In this document: positions 14,996 through 20,393 of the stretch, piece after piece | How positions within the stretch are numbered: position 1 is the first letter of the stretch | How the letters are laid out: each line of letters begins with the position of its first letter | From: a virus | Virus record (IMG/VR): IMGVR_UViG_3300020419_000094 | Span: 1-21,513 of that record | DNA length: 21,513 nt | Strand: one strand, 5' to 3' | Program-made: the position numbers and the translations under genes | The notes under the pieces: model-generated | Databases searched by the model: none | Told to the model about the DNA's origin: nothing | What the model saw: only the letters and a program-made list of their open reading frames with translations

Positions 14996-15116
14996 TAACA
15001 AATACAAACCGCAAGTCAAGATTCGACCCACCATTGCGGCGTCCCGTGTGGGACAACCCAGCTCCCAACGTGTAACGGGAGCACGAGTTAATTCTGTCCG
15101 AGTAAAACACAACTAA
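14931..15116 (+). CDS. Small basic Lys/Pro/Ser-rich protein (61 aa)
   Basis: Starts at ATG 14931 inside the portal gene and stops at TAA 15114-15116, one base shared with the scaffold ATG (TAATG). The product begins MEEKKPQKASPKKAQS, with a Lys- and Pro-rich start and a basic, Ser/Val-rich end (RVTGARVNSVRVKHN). The exact stop-start coupling and the otherwise empty 120-bp gap support a real gene. No family is recognised; a small DNA-binding or virion accessory role is possible. Confidence 0.6.
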   Translation: MEEKKPQKASPKKAQSAPKEPDNKYKPQVKIRPTIAASRVGQPSSQRVTGARVNSVRVKHN

Positions 15117-15976
15117 TGGCTACCACCAACACCTTTAACCCTATTGACGAATCAGCTGAGGCTGCCCGTAAGGAGCAGGAAGCTAGAGCCCTAGCTGAAG
15201 GCGAACGCCTTATCGCAGCTCAAGAGGCAGCACAGGAGCAAACCTATGAAGATGCTCGCAAGGCTGATCAAGAAAGCTCGCGCTATGCGGGCAAGTACAA
15301 ATCAGCGGAAGAGCTTGAGAAGGCGTACCTTGAACTCCAGAAAAAGCTCGGGGAGCGTTCTCAGGAAGAGACCGCGGAAGAGGAGACCTCCGAACCCACT
15401 GGGGAGGTTGCTGAGGAAGAAACCGACGAGGAAGAAACCGAGGAACCTTCAGAGGTCTACCAAGCGCTTGAATCAGCTAGCCAGGAATATGAGGAAGGCG
15501 GTGAGCTTTCAGAGGAAACTCTTGAAAAGCTTTCACAGCTGGATAGCAAAGAGCTAGTTGAGCAATGGGTTCAATACGTCAATAGCTCTAAGGCAGACCC
15601 TGAACCGGGCACAATGCCTCAGGAAGACGTTGATCGGATCATGGGATCCGTTGGTGGTAAGGATCAATACGAACAGATGATCGGCTGGGCTGCTGATGCG
15701 CTAGCTCCAGACGAGATCGCTGCCTATGACGCTGTGGTCTCCAACGGTGATCCAAATTCTGTATATTGGGCAGTTCAGGGACTTCGATCGAAATACGTCG
15801 AATCCAACGGTTTTGAAGGTACTCAGGTATCTGGTAGCAGGGCACCTCGTCCTGAACCCGGATTCCGTAGCCAGGCAGAACTTGCCCGGGCTATCTCTGA
15901 TCCTCGATACCGCGATGATCCCGCTTATCGAATGGATGTTGAGCAGAAGCTCTCCCGTTCGGGGGATCTCATGTAA
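15116..15976 (+). CDS. Capsid assembly scaffolding protein, T7 gp9-like
   Basis: 286 aa, strongly acidic (T7 gp9 is 307), lying between portal and capsid as in T7. The N-terminal region is helical and Ala/Glu-rich. KYKSAEELEKAYLELQKKLG (residues ~60-80) is a motif common in podovirus scaffolds. A Glu/Thr-rich low-complexity stretch follows. The C-terminal FRSQAELARAISDPRYRDDPAYR forms the helix pair expected to contact the capsid protein. It is assumed to leave the procapsid during maturation. Function is assigned from position, charge and these motifs. Confidence 0.9.
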   Translation: MATTNTFNPIDESAEAARKEQEARALAEGERLIAAQEAAQEQTYEDARKADQESSRYAGKYKSAEELEKAYLELQKKLGERSQEETAEEETSEPTGEVAEEETDEEETEEPSEVYQALESASQEYEEGGELSEETLEKLSQLDSKELVEQWVQYVNSSKADPEPGTMPQEDVDRIMGSVGGKDQYEQMIGWAADALAPDEIAAYDAVVSNGDPNSVYWAVQGLRSKYVESNGFEGTQVSGSRAPRPEPGFRSQAELARAISDPRYRDDPAYRMDVEQKLSRSGDLM

Positions 15977-16057
15977 GTAGTAAACACTAACTTCATGACG
16001 TTACTCGCCACAAGAGATGGCTAGAGGGGTGTCAGCGCGCGAGCGGCCCCATCTCTT

Positions 16058-16271
16058 ACATATAAACCCCGAAAGGGATGGTTTAAGGAAGACGGCTACT
16101 GGTGTCTAGAGAGGGTTCGATTCCCTCTTAGCCGTATGAAGGAAGCTTAGGACCTTGTAAAAAACCAGCCCGAGATCTTGGGCCGCAAACGCGATACCCC
16201 ATATCGGAATAAATTTATTTCCAACTGAATACTTAGACAATAGAGATCTCTTAAATAGGCAACATATAAAC
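16058..16271 (+). repeat. Duplicated 10-mer ACATATAAAC with preceding ATCTCTTA in capsid leader
   Basis: ACATATAAAC occurs at 16058-16067 and 16262-16271. Each copy follows an ATCTCTTA (16051-16058 and 16246-16253), which is itself the right arm of an inverted repeat with AGAGAT. The two copies flank the hairpin cluster. They could be tandem promoters or processing sites, or remnants of a duplication. Confidence 0.6.
16092..16136 (+). ncRNA. tRNA-like minihelix (acceptor stem plus T-arm only)
   Basis: ACGGCTA (16092-16098) pairs over all 7 bp with TAGCCGT (16129-16135). Between them lies a canonical T-arm: GAGGG (16111-16115), T-loop TTCGATT and CCCTC (16123-16127), extended by A16110-T16128. 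A discriminator-like A follows and no CCA is encoded. D-arm and anticodon arm are missing, replaced by the 11-nt linker 16099-16109 (CTGGTGTCTAG), which has a GG that could dock on the T-loop. It cannot decode. It looks like the minimal RNase P substrate or a tRNA remnant. No known name is claimed. Confidence 0.7.
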
Positions 16272-16297: not shown

Positions 16298-17314
16298 ATG
16301 GCAAACATGCTCCTTACGCGCCCCGGCGCGTCTAATGGCGGCAGCGACTCACGCGCTCTGCTGCTCAAGCTCTTCACTGGCGAAGTGTATGAGTCTTTCC
16401 GTAATAGCCTTATCGCCAAGCCCCTTGTTCAGAGCCGCACTCTGACCTCGGGTAAAGAGGCCCAGTTCATCCACACCGGCACTATGACGGCGTCGTTCCA
16501 TACCCCTGGAACTCCGCTGCTTGGTAACGGTGCTGGTACTGATGGCGCTCCTAAGCAAGCTGAGACCACAATCACAGTCGATCAGCTCCTCGTAGCTCAA
16601 AGCTTTGTTTACGAATTAGATGAGGTTTTGGCTCACTACGATATTCGTGGCCCCATCGCTCGTCAAATCGGCCAATCTCTGGCTGAGCACTATGACCGCC
16701 GTATCTTCCGTGTGCTGGATCAAGCCGCTGAAGCTACTGCTGCTGTGACCGGCGAGCCTGGTGGCTTTGAAGTCAACCTGGGTGCAAACAAAGAGTATGA
16801 CGCTCAAGCACTCGTGGACGGCTTCTTTGAAGCTGCAGCTGTTCTCGACGAACGGTCTGCTCCTAAGGATGGCCGTGTGGCTGTGCTTAGCCCCCGTCAA
16901 TACTACAGCTTGATTTCCTCTGTAGACACCAACATTCTCAACCGCGACCTCGGAAACACCCAGGGCAACCTGACTTCCGGCGAAGGTCTGTATGAGATTG
17001 CTGGTATCAAGATCTACAAGTCCAACAACATTCCCTTCCTGGGTAAGTATGGCGTTGGTACTGGTGCAACCATCGAGAACACCGATACCACCAACGAGAA
17101 GAACGATTACGGTGATACCACCGACTTCACCAACAGCTGTGGACTCGTGTTCCACCGCGATGCTGCTGCTTGTGTGGAAGCAATCGGTCCTTCTGTGCAA
17201 ACCTCTGGCTCCGACGTTTCCATCATGTATCAGGGCGACCTGATTGTTGGCCGTCTGGCTATGGGCGCGGGTGCTGTCCGCGTTTCTGTTGCTGGTGCAT
17301 TCCGCAACGTTTGA
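16298..17314 (+). CDS. Major capsid protein, T7 gp10-like
   Basis: 338 aa, near the T7 gp10A length (345), in the HK97-fold capsid family. It has the typical N-terminal region LKLFTGEVYESFRNSLIAKP and the block SGKEAQFIHTGTM...FHTPGTPLLG. These are followed by VDQLLVAQSFVYELDEVLAHYD, the P-domain-like region with RVAVLSPRQYYSLIS, and YEIAGIKIYKSNNIPFLG. It follows the scaffold gene after a long structured leader and precedes a strong terminator, matching the T7 gene 10 / T-phi arrangement. No Shine-Dalgarno sequence is seen at ATG 16298; the leader just upstream is AT-rich and probably unstructured. No frameshift product is evident. Confidence 0.96.
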   Translation: MANMLLTRPGASNGGSDSRALLLKLFTGEVYESFRNSLIAKPLVQSRTLTSGKEAQFIHTGTMTASFHTPGTPLLGNGAGTDGAPKQAETTITVDQLLVAQSFVYELDEVLAHYDIRGPIARQIGQSLAEHYDRRIFRVLDQAAEATAAVTGEPGGFEVNLGANKEYDAQALVDGFFEAAAVLDERSAPKDGRVAVLSPRQYYSLISSVDTNILNRDLGNTQGNLTSGEGLYEIAGIKIYKSNNIPFLGKYGVGTGATIENTDTTNEKNDYGDTTDFTNSCGLVFHRDAAACVEAIGPSVQTSGSDVSIMYQGDLIVGRLAMGAGAVRVSVAGAFRNV

Positions 17315-17994: not shown

Positions 17995-20393
17995 TGGCTT
18001 CTGTATCACAAAGAATCCCTAACTTCCTAGGGGGCTTTTCACAGCAGCCTGACTCTCTAAAGCTCCCAGGACAGCTCACACGGGCTGATAATTGCAATCC
18101 TGACCCTACCTATGGCTTGCTGCGTAGACCGGGCTTGAAGCTTGTTAAGAGCCTTTCTAACGCAACTGCTGATGGCCAATGGTTCACCATATTCCGTGAC
18201 TCCCAAGAGCAGTACATCGGACAGTTCAGCCCATCAGGTCAACTGAAGGTTTGGGACGCCTTTACTGGAACACAAAAAACCGTCAACTCTCAAACGTCAG
18301 CTGCAACTAACTACATCTCTGGTGTAGCGCGTAGTGATTTTGAGTTGCTACAGATCAATGACTACAACTTTGTTCTCAATCGATCTAAAACTGTCAGCAC
18401 TCTCAACACAACCAGCCCTACTAGGGCTCCAGAAGCGTTGGTGGTTCTTCGTTTGGTTGCTTTCGCTAGTAAGTACACAGTAACGATTGATAACGTCAAT
18501 TACACGTACACCACGCCTGCTACTGGCAACGTTGACGTTAGGTTGATTATTGATAACCTCTCTGCTCTAATACCCTCCTCATTTACTGTTACGAGGATCT
18601 CCAATGTCCTCCATATCAAAAGAGCCAATAACGCAGATTTTACAATCGAAGCTAAAGGTGGCTTGTCTTCAAGCGCCTTAGAGGCGTTCAAAGGTAGTGT
18701 TAGAGATGTTGCAGACCTTCCTGGATCTTGTCTTGATGGGATGGTCCTTAAGGTTCAGAACTTAGACAACCTTGAAGCTGACAATTATTTTGTCAAATTC
18801 TCTGTAGACGGATCTGGTAACACCGGTGCGGGTGCGTGGGAAGAGACTATCGCTCCTGGCATCAAGACAACCATCAACCCAGCCACAATGCCTCACGCAA
18901 TCATCCGTGAGTCGAACGGGTCCTTCACTTTCCGATCTCTTAACGAAGCGGAAAAAGATGGAGAAGACTTGTACTGGGTAGAGCGCAGGGTTGGTGATGA
19001 CACAACAAACCCTATGCCAACACTTGTGGATCGCAAGATCACAGGCATGAGTTTCTTCCGTAACCGTTTGGTGTTGCTAGCTGGTACTAACGTCATCTGC
19101 TCTCAACCGGGTAACTTCTTTAACCTGTTCCGTGTCTCTGCTCTGACCATCTCGGATGCTGACGTTGTAGACCTTGCCTCTGGAACCCTCAAGCCTGTCT
19201 CTATGAGGCACGCGATTGGTGACCAACTTGGTTTGCTGCTGTTTTCTGAAAATGCTCAGTTCATGCTGACGGCTGACGGAGAAGCTTTTGGTCCCCGAAC
19301 AGCATCACTAAAAGTCTTTAGCAACTTCCCTAACAATCCAAACATCGCCCCTGTAGAGACAGGAGCCTCGATTGTCTACGTTGATGAAAACCAAAACTTC
19401 TCAGCTGTGACAGAAATGGTTGTCACATCGCTAGACAACCGACCAACTAAAGCTGACCTTTCGCGAACCTCACCAAACTACGTGCCTGGCAACCTCAGGT
19501 CTGTAGTAGCAAACAGCTCTGCCTCAATGGTGACTTTCCTTGGAGAAGATGATCCAGATGAGGTCTACATATTCAAATACTTCAATAGTGGCAATGATCG
19601 TGTGATGGCTGCCTGGCTCAAATGGCAGCTTCCTGGTGATTGCCTGCTCCAAGCTGCAAATCATGACAAATACTTCTTCGTCACTAATCAGCAGAATGGT
19701 GTTGTCTTGTCAACTTGCACGGTGATTTCTGATGTGGAGGGTACAGCAGTTAATAGTAACGGTATTAATTACGAGTATCGTCTGGATTTATTTACTAGCA
19801 CTCTCACTGTCAGTTACGACTCTGCTAATGACAGAACTAGAGTGTTCTTCCCAGCAGGAACCTACGACTCGACCTTAACACCCGTCGTTGTTGTTGATGA
19901 CACCACCATTTCAAAGGGGACTTTGTATGTAAACCCAACACACGGCGTAAGTGGCGGTTCTAACTATGTAGAAATTGCTGGAAACCGTACAGGAGCTAAT
20001 AAAATAACTCTTGGTTACCAATACACTACCACTATTGGTTTGCCTAAGTTTTTCCGTAAGAGTGCCCAGGCCTCCGGCACTGTTCAAGCTGATGTTGTCA
20101 ACATTCCTAGGGTAACGCGTCTAATTATCCAAAGCTCTGACTCTGGTCCTTTTGACGCTACTGTCGCCTTGAAAGGGAGAACTACAAAATCGTATAGCTT
20201 CCCGCAAACTACCGCTAACGAATATCTGGCAAACTCTGCACCATTGCCTGAAATCATTGATAACACCATCCCTGTCTATGGGAAAGGTACGGATGTCGAT
20301 GTCACAATCACATCTGATACGCCATTCCCAGTTTCATTCGTCGCTGCAACTTGGTATGGAAACTACACCACCAAAGGAATCAGACAAATCTAA
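17994..20393 (+). CDS. Tail tubular protein B, T7 gp12-like
   Basis: 799 aa (T7 gp12 is 794). It would form the tail nozzle. The N-terminal SQRIPNFLGGFSQQPDSLKLPGQ matches the T7 SQSIKNLKGGISQQPDILRYPDQ pattern, followed by GLLRRPG and the FTIFRDSQEQYIGQF block. LYWVERRVGDDT and the FFRNRLVLLAGTNVICSQPGNFFNLF segment are conserved across podovirus nozzle proteins. The end, WYGNYTTKGIRQI, is also family-like. It overlaps the gp13-like gene by 38 nt. Confidence 0.95.
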   Translation: MASVSQRIPNFLGGFSQQPDSLKLPGQLTRADNCNPDPTYGLLRRPGLKLVKSLSNATADGQWFTIFRDSQEQYIGQFSPSGQLKVWDAFTGTQKTVNSQTSAATNYISGVARSDFELLQINDYNFVLNRSKTVSTLNTTSPTRAPEALVVLRLVAFASKYTVTIDNVNYTYTTPATGNVDVRLIIDNLSALIPSSFTVTRISNVLHIKRANNADFTIEAKGGLSSSALEAFKGSVRDVADLPGSCLDGMVLKVQNLDNLEADNYFVKFSVDGSGNTGAGAWEETIAPGIKTTINPATMPHAIIRESNGSFTFRSLNEAEKDGEDLYWVERRVGDDTTNPMPTLVDRKITGMSFFRNRLVLLAGTNVICSQPGNFFNLFRVSALTISDADVVDLASGTLKPVSMRHAIGDQLGLLLFSENAQFMLTADGEAFGPRTASLKVFSNFPNNPNIAPVETGASIVYVDENQNFSAVTEMVVTSLDNRPTKADLSRTSPNYVPGNLRSVVANSSASMVTFLGEDDPDEVYIFKYFNSGNDRVMAAWLKWQLPGDCLLQAANHDKYFFVTNQQNGVVLSTCTVISDVEGTAVNSNGINYEYRLDLFTSTLTVSYDSANDRTRVFFPAGTYDSTLTPVVVVDDTTISKGTLYVNPTHGVSGGSNYVEIAGNRTGANKITLGYQYTTTIGLPKFFRKSAQASGTVQADVVNIPRVTRLIIQSSDSGPFDATVALKGRTTKSYSFPQTTANEYLANSAPLPEIIDNTIPVYGKGTDVDVTITSDTPFPVSFVAATWYGNYTTKGIRQI

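Follow-up and report, generated by a model that had tools for sequence, protein, structure and literature searches.

A tRNA-like structure (TLS) located between the scaffold and major capsid protein genes of a T7-like cyanopodovirus probably acts as an mRNA punctuation signal cut by the RNase Z and RNase P of the host, as judged from its sequence and from comparison with relatives. The structure is conserved and covaries among related phages, its T-loop lies at a tRNA-like distance from an N|UU boundary, tRNA genes replace it at the same nucleotide position in some relatives, and it recurs at other gene junctions. In general, tRNAs are excised from transcripts by RNase P and RNase Z. If scaffold and capsid are transcribed as one RNA, the host tRNA-maturing enzymes would take the acceptor/T-arm stack for a CCA-less pre-tRNA, and RNase Z cleavage after A16136 would release a capsid mRNA starting at U16137-G16138 (UU in most relatives) and carrying a structured leader. 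Placed directly at the new 5' end, this leader would shield and stabilize the message against 5'-end-dependent decay, and RNase P cleavage before A16092 would trim the upstream message. RNase Z may also set the 5' ends of several early messages.

Anatomy of the tRNA-like structure

The 21.5-kb record analyzed here in full (21,513 nt; hereafter the window) comes from a T7-like cyanopodovirus and covers part of its genome. Its genes for a phage RNA polymerase, a portal, a scaffold, and a Gp10A-like capsid follow the T7 order, and the nearest named phages are the Synechococcus phages S-CBP2, P60, S-TIP28, and Syn5. The TLS sits in the 321-nt gap between the scaffold gene (15116-15976; Pfam Phage_T7_Capsid, capsid assembly, E=3.8e-9), which would supply the upstream message, and the capsid gene (16298-17314; Pfam Gp10A-like, E=1.1e-62), which would supply the downstream one; both genes, the TLS, and the leader features described below are on the plus strand. 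Separately, a tRNA-Leu (CAG) gene lies at 45-126 on the minus strand, upstream of the RNA polymerase gene and opposite to the strand of the phage genes, and is possibly linked to an attachment site.

A scan of either strand for a TTCRANN loop with a T-stem of at least 5 bp and an abutting 7-bp Watson-Crick acceptor returned a single match in the whole window, at 16092-16136, which was also supported by folding and comparison. The initial annotation had placed the element at 16091-16136; its 3' end holds and its 5' end moves by one nucleotide. Sequence and scan agree with the annotated 7-bp acceptor and T-arm joined by 11 nt. The acceptor strands ACGGCTA (16092-16098) and TAGCCGT (16129-16135) form seven Watson-Crick pairs, and the T-arm (16110-16128) consists of a six-pair stem, AGAGGG (16110-16115) with CCCTCT (16123-16128), closed by the loop TTCGATT (16116-16122). 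The linker CTGGTGTCTAG (16099-16109) joins the two, and the discriminator-like A16136 is followed by UG, not UU (16136-16138), with CCA absent. RNase P cleavage is predicted 5' of 16092, and RNase Z cleavage is predicted at 16136/16137 from the T-loop spacing described below.

Chance pairing had been considered unlikely, and shuffling bears this out, as such a TLS appeared in none of 300 dinucleotide shuffles of the window and none of 5000 shuffles of the leader. The 48-nt element has a folding z of -2.7, with equal stability in 1 of 200 shuffles, and it is predicted to fold as a three-way junction, one arm of which, CUGG-UGU-CUAG, comes from the linker. This arm is a small hairpin containing UGG, so the TLS is not strictly armless: the annotated absence of an anticodon arm stands, but that of a D arm does not. 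On this folding model, the window TLS is a tRNA minus its anticodon arm, with a D-like hairpin carrying the UGG of the D-loop, and not a bare minihelix. It is not called a tRNA by ARAGORN and scores 16.2 bits against the Rfam tRNA cut-off of 29; the complete cloverleaf with an anticodon arm and the recognition by tRNA models that it lacks are found in L091, L107, L149, and L071. Both sequence and fold provide the coaxial acceptor-T-arm stack and T-loop of an RNase P substrate, although the window stack is 13 bp, not 12.

Two further elements precede the TLS. A stem formed by AAGAGATGG (16012-16020) and CCATCTCTT (16049-16057), identified from the sequence and the window-clade alignment, spans 16012-16057 and differs among relatives. 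The element GGATGGTTTAAGGAA (16076-16090) is present before the TLS in Syn5 and S-TIP28 as well. This ACGGTTTAAGGAA element (window 16076-16090; Syn5 19804-19816) weakly matches the reverse complement of Rfam PhotoRC-I (E=0.046), and it is possible that PhotoRC-I was modelled on the wrong strand.

The capsid-leader slot and leader RNA in related phages

Searches with capsid genes and with patterns yielded several hundred cyanopodovirus leaders, 185 of them non-redundant; the loci behind the comparative counts are not independent. Automatic classification of the slot gave 63 TLSs, 88 hairpins, 4 T-arms only, and 30 others, most of which are visibly variants of these types. Genuine tRNA genes occupy the slot in NATL1A-7, L107, and L149 (tRNA-Gly) and in L071 and L075 (tRNA-Asn), and the tRNA-Gly of NATL1A-7 is the only tRNA of that phage. 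Cloverleafs that resemble tRNA-Gly or other tRNAs and go unreported by tRNA finders are found in L095, L120, L036, and L072, with the copies in L095 and L120 appearing degraded. Forms comprising an acceptor, a D-like hairpin, and a T-arm are present in the window, Syn5, S-TIP28, L018, and L032. The occupants of this one genomic position range in graded steps from real tRNA genes, via stripped tRNAs, to a hairpin. UGG D-loops accompany UUC T-loops in 21 of 26 cases versus 5 of 16 (P=0.003), an association that is suggestive, post hoc, and confounded by relatedness.

In P60 (L083) and L029, the acceptor partner of the T-arm lies inside the end of the upstream scaffold gene. By our reading, the cloverleaf-like TLS of these two phages extends into the scaffold reading frame, whose stop codon is part of the anticodon-like loop.

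Several other elements were observed around the slot. The capsid leader of L084, L093, L107, L120, L149, L195, L206, L209, L211, L217, and L325 is preceded, at a distance of some hundred bases, by a Glutamine-II riboswitch aptamer. Group I introns (Rfam RF00028, 83-99 bits) lie within the major capsid gene at L012:3430-3654, L014:3430-3654, L024:1085-1309, L209:2400-2627, L210:1593-1819, L211:2400-2627, and L217:1708-1916. A free-standing LAGLIDADG-type homing endonuclease reading frame separates the leader RNA from the capsid start at L022:452-844 (Pfam LAGLIDADG_1, E=1e-4), and similar reading frames are present in L028, L052, L054, and L309, that of L052 being assigned on the motif alone, without a Pfam match.

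The second type of slot occupant is a 10-bp stem closed by the near-invariant 15-nt loop CACCUCAGAGUCGGA. It is found in about half of the leaders (88/185 by the strict pattern and more if loop variants are counted), including L304-L383 and most MPP-B capsid leaders, for example on the minus strand near 20926 in L426 (S-RIP2). Positions 1-10 of the stem are paired, pairing falls to 11% at position 11, and UU begins at 10 + 1 in 128 of 133 cases. TLS and hairpin modules thus share one ending, namely stem, N, UU, and leader helix. The hairpin bears no obvious likeness to tRNA but ends at the same N-UU boundary. The role common to both module types may therefore lie outside tRNA-type processing, or one enzyme may accept the hairpin as its second substrate. 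The tested hairpin variant was essentially absent from 85k prokaryote genomes, with one chance-like match; the idea of a host element was discarded, as this lone match lacks an N-UU leader.

Downstream of the boundary, the capsid mRNA would begin with a conserved structured RNA. Comparison within the window clade places the first leader helix at 16139-16156, where AAGG (16139-16142) pairs with CCTT (16153-16156), and this helix varies within the clade as AAGG/CCTT, GTGG/CCAC, GAGG/CCTC, GAGC/GCTC, and GACC/GGTC. The same comparison identifies the hairpin CCCGA-GATC-TTGGG with a palindromic loop (16169-16182) and the hairpin GGAATAAATTTATTTCC (16206-16222). Between them, a TGGG/CCCA helix around a small hairpin, with a GATA bulge on the 3' side (16179-16201), has a well-supported equivalent, H1, in MPP-B leaders. 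The perfect palindrome AGAGATCTCT (16242-16251) precedes the capsid start, and in relatives its sequence changes while the palindrome is kept. Among MPP-B phages, 132 of 135 distinct leaders form one stem-loop that starts at the base following UU or one base later. Its tetraloops are of the UACG type, an AUAC bulge lies on its 3' side, and its outer and inner stems consist of standard pairs that vary between leaders; pairing of a second hairpin (GAUAGA loop) is kept through GC/UA/CG exchanges. These folds were obtained by folding each sequence and tallying pairs, as length variation of the first helix defeats RNAalifold on MAFFT alignments. The leader RNA defined here is thus conserved and matches no Rfam family in either gathering or E-value mode; elsewhere, Rfam matches were limited to tRNA, group I introns, abiF, and Glutamine-II. 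The two window hairpins at 16169-16182 and 16242-16251, with equivalents in nearly all leaders, are near-perfect palindromes of variable sequence whose 4-nt loops are mostly self-complementary (CUAG, CAUG, GAUC, CCGG, and UCGA). On sequence grounds, this suggests RNA dimerization or a dimeric binder.

It is conceivable that no cleavage takes place and that the TLS, tRNA, or hairpin is a stable helical cap stacked on the first leader helix across a 3-nt N-UU hinge, insulating the ribosome-binding region of the capsid gene or recruiting a protein. The interchangeability of hairpin and TLS at equal N-UU spacing and the conserved fold of the downstream leader fit such a cap. However, it leaves unexplained both the genuine tRNA genes in the slot and the T-loops found at the exact tRNA distance at early junctions, where the downstream hairpin differs, and we consider it unlikely. 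Even less probable is a terminator or attenuator, in which transcription from upstream stops or pauses at the module and a promoter inside the leader starts the capsid message. The modules are indeed G+C-rich intergenic hairpins, and T runs follow some of the hairpin type, but a new helix without a U tract starts directly after N-UU, tRNA genes are not terminators, and the published Syn5 promoter sequence occurs at just two places, 4929 and 44797, both away from the Syn5 capsid gene. A promoter for the Syn5 RNA polymerase was accordingly rejected as a candidate, since neither the window nor the capsid region of Syn5 contains its consensus.

T-loop spacing, early-gene junctions, and candidate enzymes

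Cleavage as a punctuation signal, the reading we prefer, draws on the spacing of the T-loop. UU begins exactly 12 nt plus the discriminator after the T-loop in 43 of 55 non-redundant T-arm modules, and most of the remainder, the window among them, show 13 + 1; the T-loop search behind these counts made no use of UU. Acceptor pairing across the 55 modules exceeded that of 300/300 shuffles whether tRNA-Gly-like modules were included or excluded, although the acceptors of many anticodon-less TLSs comprise just 5-6 bp and are not individually beyond shuffles. An earlier acceptor test that left the linker length free was likewise weak for single loci. A helix directly follows UU in 51 of 55 modules, but by a criterion too permissive to carry weight.

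The same spacing recurs outside the capsid leader. A scan of eight complete genomes and the window returned 11 sense and 2 antisense matches, with 0.6 expected; it demanded UU, so the A|UG copy of the window is not listed. The sense matches lie at gene junctions and are followed by N-UU and, mostly, a hairpin. Those away from the capsid gene lie at early-gene junctions of 9515-10a, NATL2A-133, S-SBP1, S-RIP2, and NATL1A-7, where each TLS carries N-UU and most are directly followed by a 5-7-bp hairpin, often with an ACUGA loop. No sense match was found in 617 kb of other contigs, which are mostly late-region. In a blind search using the downstream hairpin alone, 15 distinct sites had usable upstream sequence; in 14 of them the T-loop was exactly where predicted and its 5-bp T-stem was complete, and in the remaining one it was out of register by one base. 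A search with the gp12 protein returned unrelated phages. The element is therefore not specific to the capsid leader, and the capsid slot itself also takes real tRNA genes and a second hairpin type. Literature searches returned no description of these elements in cyanophages.

The initial annotation had also tied its proposal to compensatory changes in related phages, and such changes are found in both stems. The orthologous junctions of L513 and L515 differ by four double compensatory changes in the acceptor and two in the T-stem, and those of L516, L519, and L526 by three to four in the T-stem. This bears on whether the TLS is a decayed cargo tRNA or an attachment-site remnant. Real tRNA genes in the same slot and the degraded look of the L095 and L120 copies would suit such an origin, but the stem pairing is kept through compensatory changes, the 12-nt ruler is fixed, and genomes carry several copies at junctions, and we regard this as the least probable of the readings. 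The decayed-tRNA, att, and aminoacylatable-mimic alternatives named in the initial annotation are weakened.

A decoy that engages a tRNA-binding host or defense factor (an anticodon nuclease, a synthetase, or EF-Tu) and marks no cut is also very improbable. The acceptor and T-arm are the parts retained, and abiF RNA, likewise defense-linked, is found in the leaders of two relatives. A decoy would nevertheless have no need of a cis location in leaders or of a fixed position ahead of the UU-hairpin at more than one gene junction, and CCA is not encoded. The abiF RNA (RF03085, 52 bits), which is linked to Abi defense genes, lies directly 5' of the TLS at L016:2251-2287 and L021:654-690, and in these two capsid leaders is possibly itself a decoy.

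For processing by cleavage, RNase Z is the enzyme suggested at the capsid end. RNase Z cleaves CCA-less pre-tRNA directly after the discriminator N73 (PMC3161902) and measures the distance from the tRNA elbow (PMC4919913). A C following N73 suppresses cleavage (PMC7479834), and in B. subtilis a U at either of the two downstream positions raises it about 200-fold (PMC10100781). RNase P and RNase Z are both encoded in cyanobacteria (PMC10989914). The distance from T-loop to discriminator is that of tRNA (exactly 12 in 43/55, 13 in the window, and as predicted in 14/15 blind sites), and CCA is absent with U within 2 nt of the discriminator (A|UG in the window), a rule that was established for B. 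subtilis (PMC10100781, PMC7479834). By analogy, N73-UU without CCA is read as an RNase Z cut signature. The fixed T-loop-discriminator-UU distance suggests RNase Z as the enzyme that defines where the capsid mRNA begins. Where a tRNA gene occupies the slot, cleavage after N73 is what normal tRNA maturation would produce, and the phage modules carry the RNase Z signature. The annotated processing signal between scaffold and capsid mRNAs therefore remains the best-supported reading, with cleavage predicted, but the enzymes are reassigned: RNase P, which had been proposed at either end, would fit the 3' end of the scaffold mRNA, and the T-loop-to-N-UU distance assigns the capsid 5' end to RNase Z.

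Relation to known systems and implications

Host RNases cut the transcripts of some phages. T7 has RNase III sites between its early genes; the likeness lies in the proposed host-RNase cutting of a polycistronic T7-like transcript at gene junctions, whereas the RNA structure and the enzyme differ. The tRNA-like structures at the 3' ends of plant viruses (TYMV type) and tmRNA mimic the acceptor and T-arm without a normal anticodon arm. The cyanophage TLS shares this mimicry, but is internal to a polycistronic transcript and has neither CCA nor a tag reading frame. Host RNase P cuts the phage C4 antisense RNA, M3 RNA, and T4 gene 32 mRNA (PMC11143913); these, by contrast, are single cases without a repeated junction element or an RNase Z signature.

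Closer parallels come from mitochondria, where RNase P and RNase Z cuts at tRNAs release mRNAs (PMC8003010). The slot resembles this punctuation in NATL1A-7 and L071, which hold a genuine tRNA gene, but most phage copies lack an anticodon arm and are not tRNAs. Plant mitochondrial t-elements are reported, in a passage of PMC8003010 citing Forner et al. 2007, to mark endonucleolytic mRNA ends. Both they and the TLS are tRNA-like structures between genes that are not tRNAs. The TLS has the acceptor and T-arm of a t-element between two genes, and its structure is kept rather than its sequence, with compensatory changes in both stems and acceptor pairing above shuffles. Conversely, the phage elements belong to cyanobacterial phage genomes, an N-UU and a structured leader are attached to them, and their cleavage is predicted. 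By analogy, the TLS may work as the phage counterpart of mitochondrial tRNA punctuation and t-elements, a class whose membership is defined by mRNA ends, which are here predicted.

We tentatively extend this proposal, with less than even confidence, to a genome-wide punctuation of cyanopodovirus transcripts by tRNA mimicry. In this scheme, a single host machine, probably RNase Z, would recognize tRNAs, anticodon-less TLSs, and the CACCUCAGAGUCGGA-loop hairpin in turn, and each of these would release a message with a 5'-UU and a protective hairpin. If true, the CACCUCAGAGUCGGA-loop hairpin would mimic the tRNA elbow in a new way. The punctuation reading itself would extend the principle of mitochondrial t-elements to phages and make exact mRNA 5' ends predictable from sequence alone. 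Late capsid expression would likewise be tied to host tRNA processing. Thus, the TLS offers a concrete proposal for how transcripts may be cut and stabilized in T7-like cyanophages, which are common marine viruses.
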